Assembly (NCBI GenBank): GCA_016218825.1
Contig: JACRCV010000056.1
Span: forward strand, 1 to 64,000
Source of the DNA: Deltaproteobacteria bacterium
Lineage (GTDB): Bacteria > Myxococcota > XYA12-FULL-58-9
Length of the DNA stretch: 64,000 nucleotides
Direction of reading: 5' to 3'
Shown here: in pieces, positions 1 to 64,000 of the stretch
Layout: each line of letters opens with the position of its first letter
Numbering within the stretch: the first letter of the stretch is position 1
Position numbers and translations under genes: made by a program
Notes under the pieces: model-generated
Told to the model about the DNA's origin: nothing
Database searches by the model: none
What the model saw: the letters and a program-made list of their open reading frames with translations, nothing else

Positions 1-39
1 CCGTCGGGGGCGGGATCGGGCGCGGCGCGGATGTACTGA

Positions 40-95
40 GGGGTGGGGGTGGGGTGCGCCGCGGCAGCCGCGGCGCGGGAATCAAAAGCAGGTGC
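40..95 (-). repeat. Dispersed hairpin repeat, copy A (TTTGATTCCC box + perfect 9-bp stem + CCCCACCCCCA)
   Basis: Minus strand reads CACCTGCTTTTGATTCCC-GCGCCGCGG-CTG-CCGCGGCGC-ACCCCACCCCCACCCC; same architecture as four other copies in the window. Confidence 0.8.
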
Positions 96-103
96 AGAGC
101 GCT

Positions 104-2532
<2,429 letters not shown>

Positions 2533-27422: not shown

Positions 27423-27898
27423 CCGAGTCGGCGGCGCGCCTGCATCGGCGCCTCGCGGTGCCGATCCGTCTCTACCTCGGCGGCGTGTTCTTGTGGGCCT
27501 CTTGGCACAAGATCCTCGACCCGCACGGCTTCGCCCTCGACATCGCGACCTACGACATCCTGCCGCTCGGCCTCGTCAACCTGCAGGCGCTGTTGTTGCC
27601 GTGGATCGAGCTGGTCGCAGCAGGGGCGCTCATCGCCGGCCTCTGGAGCCGGGCGGCGGCGGTGCTGACGTGCGGCATGATGCTGATGTTCACCGTCGCG
27701 CTCGGCATCGCTCTCCATCGGGGCCTCGACACATCGTGTGGGTGCTTCGCCTCGACCCTCGAGGCCACCGATCCGATCTCGGGGTGGACCATCGCCCGAG
27801 ACTTGCTCTGGCTCGGTCTGGCGCTCTATGTCGCGGCCTTCGATCGCCGGCCGTGGGGGCTCGAGGCGCTGCTCTTTCGGAGGAAGGCAATCTCATGA
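27419..27898 (+). CDS. MauE/DoxX-family membrane protein
   Basis: Four TM helices; LGGVFLWASWHKILDPHGFALDIATYDILP and CGCFAS. Confidence 0.78.
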   Translation: MTESAARLHRRLAVPIRLYLGGVFLWASWHKILDPHGFALDIATYDILPLGLVNLQALLLPWIELVAAGALIAGLWSRAAAVLTCGMMLMFTVALGIALHRGLDTSCGCFASTLEATDPISGWTIARDLLWLGLALYVAAFDRRPWGLEALLFRRKAIS

Positions 27899-27918: not shown

Positions 27919-27964
27919 CCTTTGATCCCCGCGCGGCCGCGACGGCCGCGCTCCCCACCCCCAG
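27919..27964 (+). repeat. Dispersed hairpin repeat, copy E
   Basis: CCTTTGATCCCC-GCGCGGCCG-CGA-CGGCCGCGC-TCCCCACCCCCA; perfect 9-bp stem at 27931-27951. Confidence 0.75.
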
Positions 27965-27987
27965 CCAACCTAGCAGGGGGGCCGGCG

Positions 27988-33408: not shown

Positions 33409-33453
33409 CGGCGTCGATGGTTACCAGATACGACTGACAGTCTGGGCGCAATT

Positions 33454-33546
33454 CTCGCCCCCGCCCCACCCGGGGGCGGGGGTCGGGGGGTGGGGGTGGG
33501 GAGCGCGGCCGCAGCGGCCGCGCGGGAATCAAAGGCAGGTGAAGGA
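33454..33546 (-). repeat. Dispersed hairpin repeat, copy B (two hairpins and G-rich plus-strand arm)
   Basis: Minus strand CACCTGCCTTTGATTCCC-GCGCGGCCG-CTG-CGGCCGCGC-TCCCCACCCCCA ... CCCCCGCCCC-CGGGT-GGGGCGGGGG. Confidence 0.85.
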
Positions 33547-33549
33547 GGC

Positions 33550-34041
33550 CTAAACGCGAAAGCCCGGCTCGAGCTGGTCATAGGTGTCCCGGATGTGCTG
33601 CGAGATGATCTTGGTCTCGGAGAGCACCGGCATGAAGTTGGTGTCGCCCGACCAGCGCGGCACCACGTGGTAGTGCAGGTGATCCGGGATGCCGGCGCCG
33701 GCGGCCGGGCCGAGGTTCATACCGACGTTCATCGCGTGTGGCTCGAGGATCTTCTGCAACACCGTCACGGCCACGAGCAGCGTCTGGTGCAGCTCGGTGA
33801 AGGTCTCCGGGTCGAGAGCGTCGAGCCGCCCGGCGTGAGTGAGCGGCAACACCAGCAAGTGCCCGTTGTTGTATGGGTACTTGTTCATCAACACGAAGGT
33901 CTTGCGGCCGCGATAGAGAACCAGCCGCTCGCGGTCGTCACCGGGGCTCGCGAGCGCGCAGAAGACACACGTCTGCGGCGGCTCCCGCACGGAGTCCTTG
34001 ATGTACTCCATGCGCCAGGGAGCCCAGAGGCGTTCAGTCAC
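33550..34041 (-). CDS. HIT-family hydrolase
   Basis: Zn-binding-like N-terminus CVFCALA and HIT-like motif DHLHYHVVPRW. Confidence 0.9.
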   Translation of the reverse strand: MTERLWAPWRMEYIKDSVREPPQTCVFCALASPGDDRERLVLYRGRKTFVLMNKYPYNNGHLLVLPLTHAGRLDALDPETFTELHQTLLVAVTVLQKILEPHAMNVGMNLGPAAGAGIPDHLHYHVVPRWSGDTNFMPVLSETKIISQHIRDTYDQLEPGFRV

Positions 34042-44574: not shown

Positions 44575-44602
44575 ACTCTCCGGCTAGGGCTCTCTCCACA
44601 TG

Positions 44603-44683
44603 ATTTGATTCCCGCGCCGCGGCTGCCGCGGCGCTCCCCACCCCCACTCCCCTAACCCCTCGCCCCCGGGTGGGGCGAGGGGA
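44603..44683 (+). repeat. Dispersed hairpin repeat, copy C (two hairpins)
   Basis: ATTTGATTCCC-GCGCCGCGG-CTG-CCGCGGCGC-TCCCCACCCCCACTCCCCTAA-CCCCTCGCCCC-CGGGT-GGGGCGAGGGG. Confidence 0.85.
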
Positions 44684-44717
44684 ACGGAATCCGCGCCAGT
44701 GCAAGTGTGTGCAGTGG

Positions 44718-45401
44718 TCAAAACAACACTCGCATCGGCACGCTGAAGAGCGTCGTCAGGCCGCCGAGCACGGTCGCGAACGGCATCGCCATCAGACGGC
44801 CGCCGAACACCATCACCCCGATCAACAGCCAGGTACCGTACTGCATGTTGAAGCGCTCCCAGGCGAGCGCCGCGTTGCCCGACAGCAGGCCGGTGACCAC
44901 CTTCTGGCCGTCGAGCGGCCGCACCGGGATCATGTTGAAGACCGCGAGGCTGATGTTGATGAGCACCATGCGCGACATCAGATCCCGCGTCGTGACGAGC
45001 CCCTGCAGCCAGCCGCCGTGGTAGGCGGCGGCGAAGAGCCCCATCATCAGCGTCGCCATGATCAAGTTCGAGATCGGCCCGGCCGCCGCAGTGATCATCA
45101 TGCCGGTGCGCATCGACGTCTTGCGCGAGAAGCGCGCCGGGTTTACCGGCACCGGCTTCGCCCAGCCGAAGAAGAAGCCGCCGCCCCACATCAGCATCAT
45201 GATCGGCAACAGCACCGTGCCGATCACGTCGATGTGCGCGAGCGGATTGAGGGTCAACCGCCCCATCATCTCGGCGGTGTCGTCCCCGAGCTTCTTCGCG
45301 GTGAACGCGTGCGCGAACTCGTGCACCGTGAGCGACAGGATCATCGGCACCAGCACCAGGCCGGCTTGCGCCAATTGGTGCACTAGATCGTCAGGCCGCA
45401 C
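44718..45401 (-). CDS. Site-2 protease family (M50) membrane metallopeptidase
   Basis: SLTVHEFAHAFTAKKLGDDTA zinc motif, NMIPVRPLDGQKV. Confidence 0.88.
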   Translation of the reverse strand: MRPDDLVHQLAQAGLVLVPMILSLTVHEFAHAFTAKKLGDDTAEMMGRLTLNPLAHIDVIGTVLLPIMMLMWGGGFFFGWAKPVPVNPARFSRKTSMRTGMMITAAAGPISNLIMATLMMGLFAAAYHGGWLQGLVTTRDLMSRMVLINISLAVFNMIPVRPLDGQKVVTGLLSGNAALAWERFNMQYGTWLLIGVMVFGGRLMAMPFATVLGGLTTLFSVPMRVLF

Positions 45402-45542
45402 GCCTCGCTCCTCGACGAGCCCCCACCCGTCTTTCGCCCTACTCTAGTAACGAACTCGAGCGGGCGGGGGTCTTTTCCCTTGGGCGGCGGCGAAGATCAA
45501 GGGCAAGCGGTGCCGATCCCAGGGCAGTCGAGCTCTCGCGTC

Positions 45543-45596
45543 GTTGATTCCCGGCGGGCGCTTCGCGCCCGTCCTCCGTGACCCCCACCCCGGAGC
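45543..45596 (+). repeat. Dispersed hairpin repeat, copy D (divergent)
   Basis: GTTGATTCCCGG-CGGGCGC-TTC-GCGCCCG-TCCTCCGTGACCCCCACCCC; 7-bp perfect stem. Confidence 0.65.
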
Positions 45597-47260: not shown

Positions 47261-50200
47261 TCACGGGCAGCGGTACATGTGACGGAAGTCCGCCCGCGTC
47301 GCGTCGTAGTAGACGATCGACACCGCGCCGCTCGGGTGGATCGCCACCGAGGTGTACAGGCCGACCTCGCCGTCGCCGTCCAGCACCGATGCCGACCAAC
47401 TGCCGTCCGCCGGCGACCGCACCGCGACCGCGAGCTGCGCGGTGACGCCCGCCAGCGCGCCGTACTGGTCGTAGGTCGGCGCGCCCTTGCGATAGCTGGC
47501 GTAGGCGAGGCCGCTCGGCGCGTACGCCAGGCTCCCGTACTCGCCGGCGAAGCCGCCGTCGACGGTGGCGAAGGTCCACAGCCCGCCGCTGTCGCGCATC
47601 GCCTCGCGCAGGGTCTCGGTCGCGGCGCCGCCGGTGGTGCTCATCGAGGTGACGTGCACCAGGCCCGCGCCGTCGACCGCGATGGCGCTGTACCTGCCGG
47701 CGTTGCTGGCCGTGTCCGCGGTGACCGGGGTCCACGTGGTGCCGTCGGCGGAGGAGGCATAGCGCAGGTCCTCGTTGGCGTTGCTGGCGTCGTAGTAGCT
47801 CGCGTGGAAGCCGTTCGCGGCGTCGGCGACCAGCGCGGCGTACTGCCCGACGTTGGCGCTGCCGGCGTCGACGTTGCCCACCGAGAAGCTGCCGCCGGCC
47901 GGCTTGAAGGCGTACTTCAGGTCGGTGTTGGTGAGGTCGTAGTAGACGATCGCCAGGTCGCCGTCGCCGGCCACCGCGATGGCGCTGTATTGGCCGACGT
48001 TGGGGCTGCCGGCCACGTCGTCGACCGCGGTGCCGGCCGCGTCGCAGCTGCCGCCGGCGCTGCAGTGGATGTACTTCAGGCCGGTGTTGGTCTCGTCGTA
48101 GTAGCTGAGGTGAGCGCCGCCGCCGGCGTCGACCGCGACGTCACAGTACTTGCCGACGCTGCCGCCGGTGTCGATCGCCGCCACCGTCCAGACACCGCCG
48201 GCGGATCGAAACGCGTAGCGCAGCACGCCGGCGCCGGCGTCGTAGTACGCCACGTGGGTGGCGCCGCCGCTGTCGGCCGCGACCGAGCCGTAGCTGCCGA
48301 CGTTCCCCACCGAGTCGATGACCGAATCGATCCACGCGCTCGTGCCGGCGGGCCGGTAGGCGAACTTGAGATCGCGGTTGTCGGCGTCGTAGTAGGTGAT
48401 CTCGACGTCGAGCGCGCCGTCCACCGCGATCGAAGCCGCGGTGCCGACGTTGCCGTTCGCCGACACCGTCACCGGGGTCGACCACGGGACCGCGGCGCTC
48501 TGCCGATAGGCGTACTTCAGATCGTGCTTGCCGCTGGTGGCATCGTAGTAGGCGACGTGCACGCCGTCGTTCTTGTCGATCGCGATCGCGGCGTGTTGCC
48601 CGACGTTGCCGACCGCGTCGACCACCGCCCCCGCCCAGTTGCCGCTCACCGCCGGATCCAACAGCGGCGCCAGGTAGCGGTAGTTCAGGTTCACGTTGGC
48701 GGCGTCGTAGTAGACGACGTGCACGCCGCCCGTGGAGTCTACCGCCAGCGCCGAGTACTGGCCGGTGCCGGTCGCAGCGTCGACCTGCGCCGGCGCCGTG
48801 AAGCTGCCACCCTTCGGCTTCCTGAGGTAACGGAGCACCGCCGCCGACGCGTCGTAGTAGCTGATGTGGACCGCGCCCGTCTTGTCGGCTGCGATGCTGG
48901 TGTGCTCGCCGACGTTGCCCGCGGTCACCAACGCCGGCGACAGGGTGAAGGACCCCGCGGTCGCGGCGCGGTAGGCGTACTTCAAGTCCTGGTTGCTGGC
49001 GTCGCGGTAGGCGATGTGGACGCCGCGGTCGGGGTCGACGGCGATCGACGCGAACTGCCCGACGTTGCCGTCGGTGTCCACGGTGCTGAAGCCCCAGGAG
49101 CCGTTCGCCGCCTTGTAGGCGTAGCGCAGATCCCTGGCGGTCGCGTCGTAGTAGGCCAGGTGCACGCCGCTGAGGTTGTCGACCGCGACCCGGCTGTAGG
49201 GGCCGACGTCGCCGGTGCGGTCGACGACCGAGCGCACCCAGAAGCCGGACGGGGCGTGGAACGCATACATCAGATCGCGGGTCGCGGAGCTGGTCGCGTC
49301 GTAGAAGCACGCGTGCACCGCGCCGCTCGCCGCCACCGCCACCTGGCCCCATTGGCCGACGTCGCCGTCGGCGGCGATGGTCTCGCTCACCCAGGTGCCG
49401 GACGGGCAGCCACACCCGGGGTCGACGACGCCGTCACAGTCGTTGTCCTTGCCGTCGCAGACCTCCGGCGCCGGGCCGGTCTCGCCGTCACAGACCGCGG
49501 CGAAGAACCCGTCGATGCAATGGTTCAAGCCCTTGACGCACTCGCCGACGTCACTGCCGCAGCTGCGGGTCGCGTTGCCGGTGCAGTTGCCCGGGTCACA
49601 GACGCGGCCGGCGCAGATCCCGGAGGCGCAGTCGCCGTCACGGCTGCAGCCGGCGCCGTTCGCGCAGCGCGGACAGCTGCCGGCGCCGCCGCAGTCGATG
49701 CCGCTCTCCAGGCCGTTCTTGACCCCGTCGACGCAGGTCGCCGGCTGACAGGTGCCGGCACAGACCCGCGACACGCAGGTCAGGCTGTCACTGCAGGGCT
49801 CGCCGTCGGCACACAACGAGCAGCCGCCGCCGCAGATCGCCCCCGGCTCGTTGGTGCAGCTCTGGTTGACACAGGTGTCGCGCGAGCAGCTGTCGCCGTC
49901 GTCGCACTGTGGGTCCTCGGTGCACGGGGCGCAGACGCCGTCGTGGCCGCAGTAGCCGTTCCAGGCCTCGCCGTTGTCCATCACGCCGTTCTGATTGCCG
50001 TCGTCGCCGACGAGCGGACACAGCGGTTGGGGATCGGCGCTGCCGGTCGACCACACCGGGTCGTAGCGGCACAGGCCGCCGCGGCACGCCGGCCTTTGGC
50101 ACAGCGTCGTCGCCCGACAGTCCGCGTCCGCGATGCACTCGGTGTTGACCGGCAGGCACACGCTGTCGACGCACGCCAGCGCCTTTGGACAGCCGTAGTC

Positions 50201-50365
50201 GTCACTGCACACCTGGCGGCAGACGTCATCCAGGCACAGGAAACCCTGCTGGCAGACGCCGGAGCCGCCACACGGCTCGCCGGCGCCGCCGGCAGGCGAG
50301 TGGGTGCAGGCTGCGGCCAAGAGCCCCGCTCCGATCACCGTGGCCTTGAGACCTTGCCTCACCAT
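47261..50365 (-). CDS. Cys-rich lipoprotein with 14 propeller-like repeats
   Basis: Lipobox GAGLLAAACTHS; Cys-rich modules (CVDGVKNGLESGIDCGGAGSCPRCANGAGC); 14 repeats of the type GNVGQYSAIAVDxxGGVHVxYYDAxxxDLKYAYR. Confidence 0.8.
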   Translation of the reverse strand: MVRQGLKATVIGAGLLAAACTHSPAGGAGEPCGGSGVCQQGFLCLDDVCRQVCSDDYGCPKALACVDSVCLPVNTECIADADCRATTLCQRPACRGGLCRYDPVWSTGSADPQPLCPLVGDDGNQNGVMDNGEAWNGYCGHDGVCAPCTEDPQCDDGDSCSRDTCVNQSCTNEPGAICGGGCSLCADGEPCSDSLTCVSRVCAGTCQPATCVDGVKNGLESGIDCGGAGSCPRCANGAGCSRDGDCASGICAGRVCDPGNCTGNATRSCGSDVGECVKGLNHCIDGFFAAVCDGETGPAPEVCDGKDNDCDGVVDPGCGCPSGTWVSETIAADGDVGQWGQVAVAASGAVHACFYDATSSATRDLMYAFHAPSGFWVRSVVDRTGDVGPYSRVAVDNLSGVHLAYYDATARDLRYAYKAANGSWGFSTVDTDGNVGQFASIAVDPDRGVHIAYRDASNQDLKYAYRAATAGSFTLSPALVTAGNVGEHTSIAADKTGAVHISYYDASAAVLRYLRKPKGGSFTAPAQVDAATGTGQYSALAVDSTGGVHVVYYDAANVNLNYRYLAPLLDPAVSGNWAGAVVDAVGNVGQHAAIAIDKNDGVHVAYYDATSGKHDLKYAYRQSAAVPWSTPVTVSANGNVGTAASIAVDGALDVEITYYDADNRDLKFAYRPAGTSAWIDSVIDSVGNVGSYGSVAADSGGATHVAYYDAGAGVLRYAFRSAGGVWTVAAIDTGGSVGKYCDVAVDAGGGAHLSYYDETNTGLKYIHCSAGGSCDAAGTAVDDVAGSPNVGQYSAIAVAGDGDLAIVYYDLTNTDLKYAFKPAGGSFSVGNVDAGSANVGQYAALVADAANGFHASYYDASNANEDLRYASSADGTTWTPVTADTASNAGRYSAIAVDGAGLVHVTSMSTTGGAATETLREAMRDSGGLWTFATVDGGFAGEYGSLAYAPSGLAYASYRKGAPTYDQYGALAGVTAQLAVAVRSPADGSWSASVLDGDGEVGLYTSVAIHPSGAVSIVYYDATRADFRHMYRCP

Positions 50366-58676: not shown

Positions 58677-61600
58677 TCAGAAGATCGTGCACTCGCCGCC
58701 GAAGCAGACGAGGGGCGCGCAGCAGTCGCTGTCCCGGACGCAGTCACCGCAGCGGTGGTCGACGCACGATTGGCTCGGGCACTGGGAGCACAACGAGCAC
58801 TCGTAGCAACCCGAGGTGTCGAAGCCGTCGCAGGTCGGCTTGCAGACCAGCCGGCCGCCGGCGCCAAAGCCGCGGGACGCGCAATCGGCGCCCGCCAGAT
58901 CCTGGCCATCGCAGAGCTCGGCGCCGTTCTTCTTGCCGTCGCCGCAGTACTCGCACTGCGACACGTCGAGGGTGCAGTCGGTGTTGCAGCCGATGGTGCC
59001 GCTCGTGAACCCCTGGCCGATGTTCTGGCAGGTGCGACCCCCGAGCGCGGTGCCGTCACACAGCTCGCCGGCGTCCAAGGCGCCGTTGCCGCAGCTCGCG
59101 ACGTTGCAGCCCGAGAGGTCGAAGCTGCAGTCGGCCTTGCAGCCGAGTCCGGTGACCGACGGAAAGCCCAGGCTGCCGCAGGTGGCCGAGCCGCAGTCGG
59201 CGCTGACGCCACACGGGCCGACGCCGTCGCAGGCCTCGACGCCGTTCTTCGTGCCGTCACCGCAGCGATAGCAGCCCGAGGTGTCGAGCCTGCAGGTCGC
59301 GACCTCGCAGCCGAGCGTGCCGCCGGCGAAGTCCCCGGGCTCGTTGTGGATGCCGTTGCCGTTCAGGTCGGTGCAGGTCCGGCCGCCGAGCGACGCGCCG
59401 TCACACTGCTCACCCCCGGCCGAGGTCTGGACGATGCCGTCGCCGCAGTAGGCGGCGCGGCGGCAGCTCGAGGTGCAGGTGCCGTAGGCGCCGTTGTTGA
59501 CCCCGTCGTCGCAGGCCTCGCCGTCCGCGAGGTCCAGGTTCCCGTCACCGCAATAGGCGGCGTGCTCACAGGTCGCGGTGCAGCCGCCGTAGCTGCCGTC
59601 GTTGACGCCGTCGTCGCAGGTCTCGCCGAAGACGCTCTGGACCACGCCGTCACCGCAGATCGCGGGCAGCGTGCAGTCCGGCTTGCAGCCGTCGTACGCC
59701 CCGGTGTTGTTGCCGGTGCCGAGGTCGCACTGCTCGTAGGGTGCGTCGGTGTTGGCGTCGCCGCAGAACGCGGTCCGGCTGCAGTCGGGGTTGCAGGTGC
59801 CGTAGGCGCCGTTGTTACGCCCGTCGTCACACTGCTCGCCGTTCGCCGGCTGCACCGCGCTGTCGCCGCAGCGCGGCCCGAGCTGACAGTCACTCTCGCA
59901 GCCGCCGTAGCCGCCGGTGTTGCGGCCGGCGCCGCGGTCACACTGCTCGAAGGGCGCGGTGGTGACGCCGTCGCCGCACCAGGGCGCCAGCGTGCAGGTG
60001 CCGTTACAGCCGCCGTAGGCGCCGGTGTTGTTGCCGGGGCCGAGGTCGCACTGCTCACCGACGTACGGGTTGACGACGCCGTCGCCGCAGACGGTGGGCA
60101 ACGAGCAGTCGGGCATGCACGCGGTGCCGTCGTTGACGCCGTCGTCGCACTCCTCGCCGAAGGCGATGTCGATGAAGAGGTCGCCGCAACGTGGCGGGAA
60201 GGTGCAAGCGGCGCTGCAGGTGTTGTAGCCGCCGTTGTTGACGCCGTCGTCGCACTCCTCGCCGCTGTTGGCGACGCCGTCGCCGCAGAAGTCGGCGCGG
60301 CTGCAATCCGGGTTGCAGCCACCGTAGGCGCCGGTGTTCTGACCCGGGCCCAGATCGCACTGCTCGTAGAGCGGTTGGAGCGCGCCGTCGCCGCAGCGCG
60401 GCGCCGCCGCCCGACAATCGGTGCTGCAGGAGCCGTAGCCGCCGTTGTTGACGCCGTCGTCGCAGACCTCGTTGTAGCCCGCCTGAACGACGCCGTCGCC
60501 GCAGCGCGCGGGGAAGCGACAGTCGGCCTTGCAGGCGTTGTAGGCGCCGGTGTTCAACGCCGTTCCCAGATCGCACTGCTCGCCATAGGTCGGCTGCACC
60601 CGCTGGTCGCCGCAGGCCGGCGCCGAGGTGCAGTTCGGGTTGCAGCCGCCGTAGCCGCCGGTGTTGTTGCCCGGCCCGAGGTCGCACTGCTCGCCGACGA
60701 AGGCGTTGACGATGCCGTCGCCGCACACCGCCGGCAGCTTACAGTCGGAGAGGCAACCGACGCCGTTGTTGACGCCGTCGTCGCACTGCTCGCCGAAGAC
60801 CGCCTGGACGACGTTGTCGCCGCAGCGCTCCGGGTAGCTGCAGTCCGCCTCGCAGGTGTTGTAGGCGCCGGTGTTGGCGCCGTCGTCGCACTGCTCCGGC
60901 GGCGCCTGCACGCCGCCGTCGCCGCAGACCCCTCCCGAGGTGCAGTCGCTGTTGCAGCCGCCGTAGGCGCCGGTGTTGAGGGCGGTGCCGAGGTCGCACA
61001 CCTCATAGAGCGGCTGCAGCACGGCGTCGCCGCAACGCTCGGCGTAGGCGCGGCAATCGAGGCTGCAGGAGCCGTAGCCGCCGTTGTTGACGCCGTCGTC
61101 GCAGAGCTCGCCCTCGCCGCCCTGCAGCAGAGCGTCGCCGCAGCGCGGCGGGAACCGGCAATCGGCCTTGCAGGTGTTGTAGAGGCCGGTGTTCGCCGCG
61201 GTGCCCAGATCGCACTGCTCGCCGGCCGCGATCTGCACGACTTGGTCGCCGCAGCGCGGCGCCAGGGTGCAGTTGGCGTTGCAGCCGCCGTAGCTGCCGG
61301 TGTTGTTACCGGGGCCGAGGTCGCACTGCTCGCCGGCGAAGGGGTTGACGATGCCGTCACCGCAGCTCACCGGCAGGCGGCAGTCGCCGAGGCAGCCGGC
61401 GGTGCCGTCACACTGCTCACCGAAGGCCGCCTGGACCGTACCGTCGCCGCAGGCAGGCGCGTTGCCGCTGCAGTCGATCAGGCACGAGCCGTAGGTGCCG
61501 TCGTTCTTGCCGTCGTCGCAGGTCTCACCGTCCCCGCCCTGCACGACGCCGTCGCCGCAGCGCGGCCCGAGGCCACAGGTCGGCGAGCAGCCGCCATAGG

Positions 61601-63983
61601 AGTCGTCGTTGGCGCCGTCGTCACACAGCTCGAACGGGGTGTCGATGTAGGCGTCGCCGCAACGGGCCGCGAGGCTGCAGTTGGGGTTGCAGGTGCCGTA
61701 GTTGCCGTTGTTGGTGCCGTTGTCGCACGCCTCGCCCGGATCCGGGAGCCCGTCGCCGCAGCGCGCCGGGTAGGTGCAGTCGGCGTTGCAGGTGTCGTAC
61801 AGGCCGGTGTTGCCCGCGGTCCCGAGGTCGCACTGCTCGCCGTTGCCGACCTGGACGATCTGATCGCCGCAGCGGGTCGGATAGGTGCAGTTGGCGTTGC
61901 AGGTGTCGTACAGACCGGTGTTGGCCGCGGTCCCTAGGTCGCACTGCTCGCCCAGCGCCGGGTCGACGAAACCGTCGCCGCAGGTCGCGGTGCTGGTGCA
62001 GTTGGCGGCGCAGCGGTTCGGCGGCAGGCCGGTGTTGCCGGCGACGCCGAAGTCGCAGTCCTCGTAGCTCGGATCGCGCACCGCGTCACCACAGACGTTG
62101 GCGCGGGCGAGACAACCCGGCATGCAGGTGCCGTAGGCGCCGTCGTTGATGCCGTCGTCGCAGACCTCGGGGCCGTTCAGGGCGCCGTCGCCGCAGCGCG
62201 GCCCCAGACCTCGGCAATCGACCGCGCAGTTGCCGGCGGCGCCGTAGCTGCCGTTCGCCGCGCCGCTGTCGCAGACCTCGCCGAGCGCGCCCTGGGTGTA
62301 GCCGTCGCCGCAGCGGGCGCTCTGACAGCCGGTCGTGCACAGGCCGGTGTTGCTGTTGCTGACCCCGAGGTCGCATTGCTCGCCGAGATCGACGATGTGG
62401 TTGCCGCAAGCCGGCGCCCGGCAGGCGCTGTTGCAGGTGGCGGTGTTCCTGACCGTGCATTGGTGCAACGGCGTCGCGGCGCAGTCGGTCGCCTCCGTCG
62501 GCACCAGGCAGGCCGTGACGTCGTCGTCGCAGGTGCCACCCAGGTCGCAGGTCTCCGGCGCCTGGACCACGCCGTCGCCGCAGTTGAGGAGCTGGCAGGT
62601 GGCGCTGCAGTTGGCGCCCGGCGGATCGCACTGCTCGGGCCAGGTGACGAGGCCGTCGCCGCACACCGTTTCGATCGTGCACGTGGCGCTGCAGCCGTCA
62701 CCGCTGCGCGCCGTACACGGCAGCGCCGCGCCGCAGTCGGCGGTCGCCGCGTCCACGCTGCAGGTCGCGTTGTCGGTGCACCGGCCGGCGTCGTCGCACT
62801 GCTCGGTGCCTTGGACGATGCCGTTGCCGCAGTGGCCGGTGCAGGTGGCGGTGCCGGTGTTGAGGAAGCCGGCCAAGGTCAGCATGTAGTTGGACTGCGT
62901 CGTGTGCCGTTCGGCGTTGAAGAAGTCGATGGCGTACAACCCCTTCTCGTAGATGCCGAAGCGGTTGTCGGTGATGATCTTCAGGGTCGGATCGACGGCG
63001 CTCGACAGCGTCACCGACCCGCCCGCGGGCCCGTGCACCCCACCGATGTCGACCGCCAGCACCCCGTTGATGTACACCCAGACGTCGTCGTCGCCGGTGA
63101 AGCTCAGGGTCTCGCCGCCGCGGTACTGGAAGTAGGTGTGGAACTCGCTGGTGAAATGGAAGTCCCGCGTCCGGCCGCGGGTGTTGCCGAAGCCGTCGGC
63201 GACGCAGTTGCCGCCGTGCGCGGTCGCGCAATCGGAGTTCTGGGTGCAGAGGAAGCCGTCGAGGCATCGGCCGCCGACGCAGCTGCCCGCCCCCCCGTGG
63301 GTCCGGCAGTCGGAGTTCTGAGCGCAGACGAAGTTGTCGGCGCAGCGGCTCGCGATGCAGAGCGCGGCGTCGTGGGTCAGGGCGCAGTCCGAGTTCTGGA
63401 CGCAGATGTAGCCGTCGGCGCAACGGTTGAGCACGAAGAAGCCACCGTCGTTGCCCTGCGAGAAGTCCGCGGAGTCGTAGCGGTAGGTTCGGCCGGAGGC
63501 GTCGAGATCGACGCGCTGCCGGACGTGGATCGTCCGCTGCACCGTTTGGTTGACGCCGGCGGTGTCGTGATACCAGGGGGCAAAGCTGGTGGCGCTGGCG
63601 ATGCACGCCGTCGGGCCGCTGCAGGTGTTCGGGGTGCAGTCGGCGTTCACCGCGCACGCGGTGTTGGTGACGGTGCAGCGGAACGGCGCGTAGGTCGGCG
63701 TGCTGTCGGCGGCGGTCCGTGGCTGCACCAGCCCGGTGTAGTTGCCGCAGATCCCGGTCTGCTCGAAGTCGGGGTGGCCGTAATAGAAGCAGCGGGCGCT
63801 GTCGCAGCGGGTGACGCAGCGCTCCAGGCACCGGCGCCGGCACTGCTGGTCACCGCCGTGGCCGGTGCATTGGCCGGCGGGGTTGGTCGAGCAGTTGAGC
63901 CCGTCGGCACACTCGCGCTGTCCGGAGGTGCAGTCGGCGTCCTGGGTGCAGGCGGTCGTCATGTCGCCGCAGAACCGCCCCAC
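58677..63983 (-). CDS. Giant Cys-rich surface protein: fibro-slime (PA14-like) domain + many DUF4215/myxobacterial disulfide repeats (5' end probably beyond window)
   Basis: FHFTSEFHTYFQYRGGETLSFTGDDDVWVYINGVLAVDIGGVHGP and dozens of CGDGxVQxxxGEQCDLGxxxNTGxYGGCNxxC units; frame open upstream of the track ORF start. Confidence 0.9.
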   Translation of the reverse strand: MGRFCGDMTTACTQDADCTSGQRECADGLNCSTNPAGQCTGHGGDQQCRRRCLERCVTRCDSARCFYYGHPDFEQTGICGNYTGLVQPRTAADSTPTYAPFRCTVTNTACAVNADCTPNTCSGPTACIASATSFAPWYHDTAGVNQTVQRTIHVRQRVDLDASGRTYRYDSADFSQGNDGGFFVLNRCADGYICVQNSDCALTHDAALCIASRCADNFVCAQNSDCRTHGGAGSCVGGRCLDGFLCTQNSDCATAHGGNCVADGFGNTRGRTRDFHFTSEFHTYFQYRGGETLSFTGDDDVWVYINGVLAVDIGGVHGPAGGSVTLSSAVDPTLKIITDNRFGIYEKGLYAIDFFNAERHTTQSNYMLTLAGFLNTGTATCTGHCGNGIVQGTEQCDDAGRCTDNATCSVDAATADCGAALPCTARSGDGCSATCTIETVCGDGLVTWPEQCDPPGANCSATCQLLNCGDGVVQAPETCDLGGTCDDDVTACLVPTEATDCAATPLHQCTVRNTATCNSACRAPACGNHIVDLGEQCDLGVSNSNTGLCTTGCQSARCGDGYTQGALGEVCDSGAANGSYGAAGNCAVDCRGLGPRCGDGALNGPEVCDDGINDGAYGTCMPGCLARANVCGDAVRDPSYEDCDFGVAGNTGLPPNRCAANCTSTATCGDGFVDPALGEQCDLGTAANTGLYDTCNANCTYPTRCGDQIVQVGNGEQCDLGTAGNTGLYDTCNADCTYPARCGDGLPDPGEACDNGTNNGNYGTCNPNCSLAARCGDAYIDTPFELCDDGANDDSYGGCSPTCGLGPRCGDGVVQGGDGETCDDGKNDGTYGSCLIDCSGNAPACGDGTVQAAFGEQCDGTAGCLGDCRLPVSCGDGIVNPFAGEQCDLGPGNNTGSYGGCNANCTLAPRCGDQVVQIAAGEQCDLGTAANTGLYNTCKADCRFPPRCGDALLQGGEGELCDDGVNNGGYGSCSLDCRAYAERCGDAVLQPLYEVCDLGTALNTGAYGGCNSDCTSGGVCGDGGVQAPPEQCDDGANTGAYNTCEADCSYPERCGDNVVQAVFGEQCDDGVNNGVGCLSDCKLPAVCGDGIVNAFVGEQCDLGPGNNTGGYGGCNPNCTSAPACGDQRVQPTYGEQCDLGTALNTGAYNACKADCRFPARCGDGVVQAGYNEVCDDGVNNGGYGSCSTDCRAAAPRCGDGALQPLYEQCDLGPGQNTGAYGGCNPDCSRADFCGDGVANSGEECDDGVNNGGYNTCSAACTFPPRCGDLFIDIAFGEECDDGVNDGTACMPDCSLPTVCGDGVVNPYVGEQCDLGPGNNTGAYGGCNGTCTLAPWCGDGVTTAPFEQCDRGAGRNTGGYGGCESDCQLGPRCGDSAVQPANGEQCDDGRNNGAYGTCNPDCSRTAFCGDANTDAPYEQCDLGTGNNTGAYDGCKPDCTLPAICGDGVVQSVFGETCDDGVNDGSYGGCTATCEHAAYCGDGNLDLADGEACDDGVNNGAYGTCTSSCRRAAYCGDGIVQTSAGGEQCDGASLGGRTCTDLNGNGIHNEPGDFAGGTLGCEVATCRLDTSGCYRCGDGTKNGVEACDGVGPCGVSADCGSATCGSLGFPSVTGLGCKADCSFDLSGCNVASCGNGALDAGELCDGTALGGRTCQNIGQGFTSGTIGCNTDCTLDVSQCEYCGDGKKNGAELCDGQDLAGADCASRGFGAGGRLVCKPTCDGFDTSGCYECSLCSQCPSQSCVDHRCGDCVRDSDCCAPLVCFGGECTIF
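60069..61344 (-). repeat. Higher-order tandem repeat (639- and 636-bp superunits) within the giant Cys-rich CDS
   Basis: GTTGACGA(T/C)GCCGTC anchors at 61344, 60705, 60069; each superunit has the same ordered set of six CGDG subunits. Confidence 0.8.
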
Positions 63984-64000
63984 CGCCTTGCCGAAGCAGT

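Follow-up and report, generated by a model that had tools for sequence, protein, structure and literature searches.

The 64,000-nt window, which is the start of contig C29 in a genome of 6.54 Mb and 121 contigs, contains a short hairpin-bearing sequence in five dispersed copies, and the question is what kind of element this is, how it spread and why its stems change and yet stay paired. The initial annotation had described five copies sharing a box, a hairpin and a 3-nt loop, and all five were recovered at their positions. The motif TTGATYCCC is expected 0.47 times in the window and is found five times, a count reached in none of 100 shuffled sequences. The stems, on the other hand, had been attributed to the wrong copies: A (40-95) and D (44603-44683) share GCGCCGCGG/CCGCGGCGC with the loop CTG, B (27919) and C (33454) share GCGCGGCCG/CGGCCGCGC with the loops CGA and CTG, respectively, and E (45543) has GGCGGGCGC/GCGCCCGTC with the loop TTC. 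The downstream box thought to be common to all copies is shared in part only, with one mismatch in A (CACCCC) and the version CTCCGTGACCCCCACCCC in E. The hairpin is indeed repeated, but the repeat unit is longer and includes a second hairpin in C and D and a TA start in the TA-type copies (Table 1). Nor do the five form a uniform set: E is from another subfamily, whose ends differ, and B contains a nested repeat in truncated form. The description as a dispersed, structured and unnamed repeat holds, and Rfam gave no match in the window above the gathering threshold.

Table 1. Positions of the element copies and their parts in the window.
Feature	Coordinates	Strand	Description
Copy A	1..106	-	TA-type; incomplete, as the contig starts at position 1
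Copy A parts		-	TAG stop of gene 104..2479 at 104-106; box 77-85; hairpin 1 56-76; C-rich linker from 55 downwards
Copy B	27922..27987	+	box TTGATCCCC 27922-27930; hairpin 1 27931-27951; then C-rich linker, followed 3' by a shortened copy of the nested repeat (CAGCCAACCTAGCAGGGGGGCCGG); upstream gene ends with TGA at 27898
Copy C	33424..33552	-	TA-type; right end inexact, lower bound approximate
Copy C parts		-	TAG stop of HIT-family gene 33550-33552; box 33524-33532; hairpin 1 33503-33523; C-rich linker
Copy C hairpin 2	33458..33482	-	CCCCCGCCCC-CGGGT-GGGGCGGGGG
Copy D	44585..44719	+	TA-type; antisense to both neighbouring genes
Copy D parts		+	TA of CTAG 44585-44586; box 44605-44613; hairpin 1 44614-44634; C-rich linker
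Copy D hairpin 2	44656..44682	+	CCCCTCGCCCC-CGGGT-GGGGCGAGGGG
Copy D right end			near the TGA stop of gene 44718..45383 (-)
Copy E	45520..45591	+	second end type; left terminal repeat CAGGGCAGTCGAGCTCTCG 45520-45538
Copy E parts		+	box 45544-45552; hairpin 1 45553-45573; deviating C-rich linker; lacks hairpin 2 and right end (truncated)

In the TA-type copies the element starts with a TA located about 20 nt before the box. The second hairpin of copies C and D is perfect and has the loop CGGGT, and RNA folding of these two copies produced both hairpins with z-scores of -1.7 and -3.7. Elsewhere in the window, long ORFs at 47261-50365 and 58677-64000 (-) are made up of tandem repeats with units of about 150 and about 105 nt, of which the ORF with the 105-nt repeat is apparently Cys-rich; both probably encode secreted or surface repeat proteins. 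Further repeat-rich coding DNA lies at 42.7-43.4 kb.

To follow the family beyond the window, the covariance-model search proposed in the initial annotation was carried out with a model built from 18 copies. It returned at least 150 matches in this genome (6.5 Mb) and seven in G001, a genome of the same genus. TTGATYCCCG occurs 118+126 times in the genome against 1+0 for the reversed control, with a background of usually 5-60 in other genomes. At the order level only G001 gave matches, and among 117 relatives the remaining ones were few and weak, none of them convincing; the best (E 1.5e-5) lacks the linker and the second hairpin. Exact-pattern scans of other species genomes and viral contigs found nothing, nor did a BLAST search of plasmids with copy D. 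The host is uncultured and of Myxococcota type; judged by protein S1, its closest named relatives are MAGs from Myxococcota/Deltaproteobacteria (RA.bin128, 91% identity).

The full element in complete recent copies is about 125-126 nt long. It is bounded by TA on both sides and runs from GACCGTTTTC through the TTGATTCCC box, hairpin 1, a C-rich linker and hairpin 2 to GAAGACGGTC. In the recent subfamily the whole unit consists of GACCGTTTTCGCCTTCATCTGATTCCC, hairpin 1, TCCCCACCCCCACCCCCTGAAT, the second hairpin CCCCCGCCCC-CGAGT-GGGGCGGGGG and CCGGATCACGTCCACCTGAAGACGGTC, again between two TAs and with unrelated flanks; the terminal inverted repeats (TIRs) of these copies read GACCGTYTTC. The remaining copies show a degenerate consensus only, TAGASCGCTYT / TAGRSCGCTCT at the left end and AAAGCGGTCTA at the right, which read inwards (TAG-cCGc--TCG) agrees with the left. 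In copies not of the recent subfamily, left and right ends resemble each other no more than shuffled ends do, and an outer stem formed by both ends was rejected as there was no within-copy excess. In 48 of 119 copies a TA precedes the box by exactly 20 or 21 nt, compared with about 1.1 expected per offset, while 68 of the 123 TA-type copies have none at -18 to -22. The 20 nt preceding the box could have been a native 3'-UTR motif, but this was rejected because the motif is also found ahead of boxes that have no gene upstream; the stretch is therefore the element's own end. Two copies, G000:C66:57206 and G000:C54:152567, are fully palindromic short versions composed of ends, box, hairpin 1, reverse-complement box and ends, as if two left ends had been joined.

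Between the ends lies a core of TTGATTCCC box, GC hairpin, C-rich linker and second GC hairpin. When copies were picked by linker and stem only, and not by the box, the exact box was present in 103 of 135 and differed by one mismatch in 22. Its pairwise identity is 0.88, whereas most of the preceding 24 nt have values of 0.32-0.40. In the TA-type copies, hairpin 1 has many distinct arms and 95% Watson-Crick pairing, and among 58 distinct hairpins in 1.87 Mb several pairs swap among GC, CG, AT and TA; one pair is broken in about a quarter to a third of the copies. The compensatory changes noticed initially were borne out in the 18-sequence set, in which 97.9% of cells are paired, four pairs have changed on both sides and the covariation score was reached by none of 500 shuffles. 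Selection on structure, as proposed at the time, is likely, although covariation could also arise without selection if one arm is copied from the other. Perfect GC palindromes are prone to such quasi-palindrome correction during replication, and the apparent conservation would then reflect a few master copies and no selection. A few arms do make up most copies and the youngest subfamily has a fixed stem mismatch, both as expected from this purely mutational origin. The G001 copies, however, have other arms that are mostly paired in both hairpins, and the unpaired box and linker are conserved as well, so that we consider arm copying a rather unlikely account of the pattern. The fixed mismatch in the youngest subfamily also indicates that perfect pairing is not needed for movement. 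Since conservation is much stronger in box and hairpins than at the ends, the core probably serves a purpose of its own, and the pattern suggests that it is kept for a function of its structure, either as a 3'-end RNA signal or as a transposition signal.

The position of the copies relative to genes was analyzed in 1.87 Mb around them, where 1537 genes were called with a hexamer model and codon-position filters. Coding sequence makes up 91% of this DNA, yet only 4 of 123 TA-type copies fall within it. For 89 of 118 intergenic elements of both end types the upstream gene is co-oriented, and the box most often begins 17-18 nt past its stop codon. TAG is over-represented among those stops (48/82 vs. 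538/1442 genes; p 8e-5). The insertion target would be a TA dinucleotide, often within CTAG, and in this GC-rich genome CTAG outside genes is concentrated at stop codons: 183 of 395 CTAGs outside coding interiors and elements are located there. The first base of the element is G, and a TAG or TAA stop that receives the element at its TA therefore ends up as TAG. A target that is usually a stop codon, together with the remade TAG, explains both the position behind genes and the 17-18 nt spacing. At convergent gene pairs the right end abuts the stop of the other gene, usually in CTAG, and where two such genes end on a shared CTAG both stops would survive the insertion. The element can thus spread without breaking genes, usually at a gene's stop codon, for which it supplies a replacement.

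Target choice may not be the whole explanation. The boundary TA is a sense stop codon in 39 of 55 copies, whereas CTAG availability predicts 46% (p 2e-4), so survival or orientation effects add to it, and sense-only copies outnumber antisense-only ones by 30 to 12 (p 0.008). This bias, and the sense position directly behind genes, would also be expected of a genus-specific 3'-UTR element, a transcription terminator or mRNA 3'-end stabiliser under selection that transposition only delivered. Box, hairpins and linker are kept while the ends decay, perfect pairing is not lower in end-decayed copies, and two GC hairpins joined by an unstructured C-rich linker may point to a Rho-like composition. 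Against such a role, most genes have no element, the sister genome has so few, and the TA target already predicts the position. An intrinsic terminator would have a U-tract directly after a hairpin, but hairpin 1 is followed by the C-rich run and hairpin 2 by mixed sequence. We therefore hold the 3'-UTR explanation to be a tentative one, possible yet less than even.

Comparison with the sister species G001 (Table 1 for copies C and D) revealed that the element is absent at five of six orthologous sites. At the site of copy C the gene pair is 8 nt apart in G001 and about 140 nt apart here, and at that of copy D about 130 nt are missing. Empty gene ends were also found at C66_90802, C103_63002 and C54_212869; at the last, the G001 genes converge with their stops a few bases apart, and here the element lies between them. 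The sixth site, C66_116762, is uninformative because it runs into a contig end, and C8_7840 was left uncounted as its alignment reaches only the last codons. With G001 only 75-80% identical at the DNA level, these junctions are not base-exact.

The stem GGCGGGCGC of copy E led to a collection of 14 copies, E included, with a second type of ends (CAGGGCAATCGAGTTCTCG / CGAGAACTCGATCGCCCTG). All three of those with both ends intact are flanked by 10-bp direct repeats (10/10, 10/10 and 9/10 matching). One core thus travels with two unrelated sets of ends. The second-type copies show no concentration at stops or behind genes, which is a further point against a selected 3'-UTR element. It is conceivable, though we would not favor it, that the core is an independent module, a structured RNA or single-strand DNA signal carried by two unrelated transposon types and kept by selection at gene 3' ends after the transposon ends have decayed, which would make it a mobile, partly domesticated 3'-UTR element.

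Many copies are themselves interrupted. In many elements the linker is separated from the 3' arm of hairpin 2 by a nested repeat (CAACCTAGCGGGGGGACCGCCCGCCGGC...CTGGCAAAGCCAGCTGCTCGGTGCCCG) that is near-invariant, about 130 nt long and probably strongly structured. Its copies include the truncated one at 27964-27987 of the window, G000:C23:7958, C54:24260, C14:111951 and about 15 more; Rfam gave no match in L154, a locus holding a copy of it. Beyond the window, Rfam matched only group II intron and tRNA, in other loci. At contig ends the element is interrupted, beside hairpin 1 or in the linker, by ends of a group II intron, the 3' one matching RF00029 and the 5' one reading GTGCGCCC (L028, L220, L013, G000:C76:21982). 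The intron was rejected as the source of the element: its ends interrupt the element and the assembly has no RVT_1 gene, which leaves the intron as a guest. IS-like ends of at least five kinds (CTGACTCTT.., CTCACCATTGATC.., CTCACCATTAGTC.., AGTGTGTGAAGATTTGG and AGATTGGATGAGGTGG) interrupt hairpin 2 in both orientations, likewise at contig ends, e.g., G000:C3:137, C33:138, C43:112, C84:104409, C24:3656 and C22:68603. The element is an insertion hot spot that breaks the assembly, and many contigs end inside it.

The repetition, the ends and TA boundaries of the recent subfamily, the placement at stop codons and the absence from orthologous sites are, in our judgment, probably best explained by a MITE family of about 125 nt, short DNA transposons that are non-autonomous and combine TA/CTAG insertion, a TAG-restoring G and a constant structured core; mobilisation in trans and a core function are inferred. 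The element is short, non-coding, dispersed and multi-copy, and it has TIRs and a TA target duplication in recent copies, along with empty sites. The stronger conservation of box and hairpins than of ends is the reverse of a textbook MITE and counts against this reading. IS630-type elements insert at TA, with CTAG preferred (PMC2170065). The element follows this IS630/Tc1-mariner rule, and an IS630-type transposase may have moved it in trans. The assembly contains no DDE_3 (IS630-type; PF13358) gene, and no cognate transposase with matching ends (TAGACCGCTTTC/GAAAGCGGTCTA) was found; as multi-copy elements are largely lost at its contig ends, the missing PF13358 gene is weak evidence.

A different kind of mobility, closer to the REP-like elements of the initial comparison, would be single-stranded transposition of a REP/BIME-type palindrome by a Y1 enzyme (RAYT or IS200/IS605) that recognises TTGAT beside the hairpin. 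TTGAT is the target of ISDra2, the genome has three Y1 genes, a fixed head sequence lies exactly 9 nt before a 9-bp hairpin, and the core alone is the best conserved part. The copies differ by compensatory changes, as REPs do (PMC2817692). Membership of the REP family in the RAYT sense was nevertheless not supported: none of the three Y1 genes has an element within about 1 kb on either side, the head is TTGATTCCC and not of the GTAG/GTGG type, and the ends show TIRs and TA or 10-bp duplications. Movement by Y1, which would also leave the stop-codon spacing unexplained, is in our opinion improbable.

Taken as a MITE, the element resembles several known systems. RUP of pneumococcus, of 107 bp and about 100 copies and proposed to be moved by IS630-Spn1, is similar in size, copy number, short TIRs, TA ends and intergenic dispersal (PMC2229807), but its host carries an IS630 that the TIRs match, whereas none was found here, and neither stop-codon restoration nor a two-hairpin core has been reported for it. 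Correia/NEMIS elements of Neisseria are also short MITEs with TA termini and occur in a shorter form and a longer one with an internal insert (PMC2229807); they have well-kept TIRs of 24 bp, in contrast to the degenerate ends and constant core seen here. QMITE2 of Coxiella is a structured MITE and IS-insertion hot spot with one copy at a gene 3' end, and its association with IS1111 may be compared with the IS-like interruptions of hairpin 2 (PMC5896051), but it has direct repeats of 7-9 bp, TIRs of 23-29 bp and no stop-codon rule. With REP/BIME sequences and their RAYTs the element shares a head plus palindrome, compensatory changes and a high copy number (PMC2817692); it differs in its transposon-like ends and in lacking a GTAG/GTGG head or a repeat-bounded rayt gene. 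Searches of an open-access library found no report of MITEs landing in and restoring stop codons.

We conclude that this is a new MITE family, unusual in where it lands and conserved in its structured core. It illustrates a simple rule for filling a dense GC-rich genome with little harm, that is, to target TA/CTAG at stops and to begin with the base that restores the stop, and from it one can predict at which places elements of this kind should accumulate in other GC-rich genomes. The combination of decayed ends and an intact core makes it testable whether bacterial MITEs become regulatory parts of gene 3' ends.
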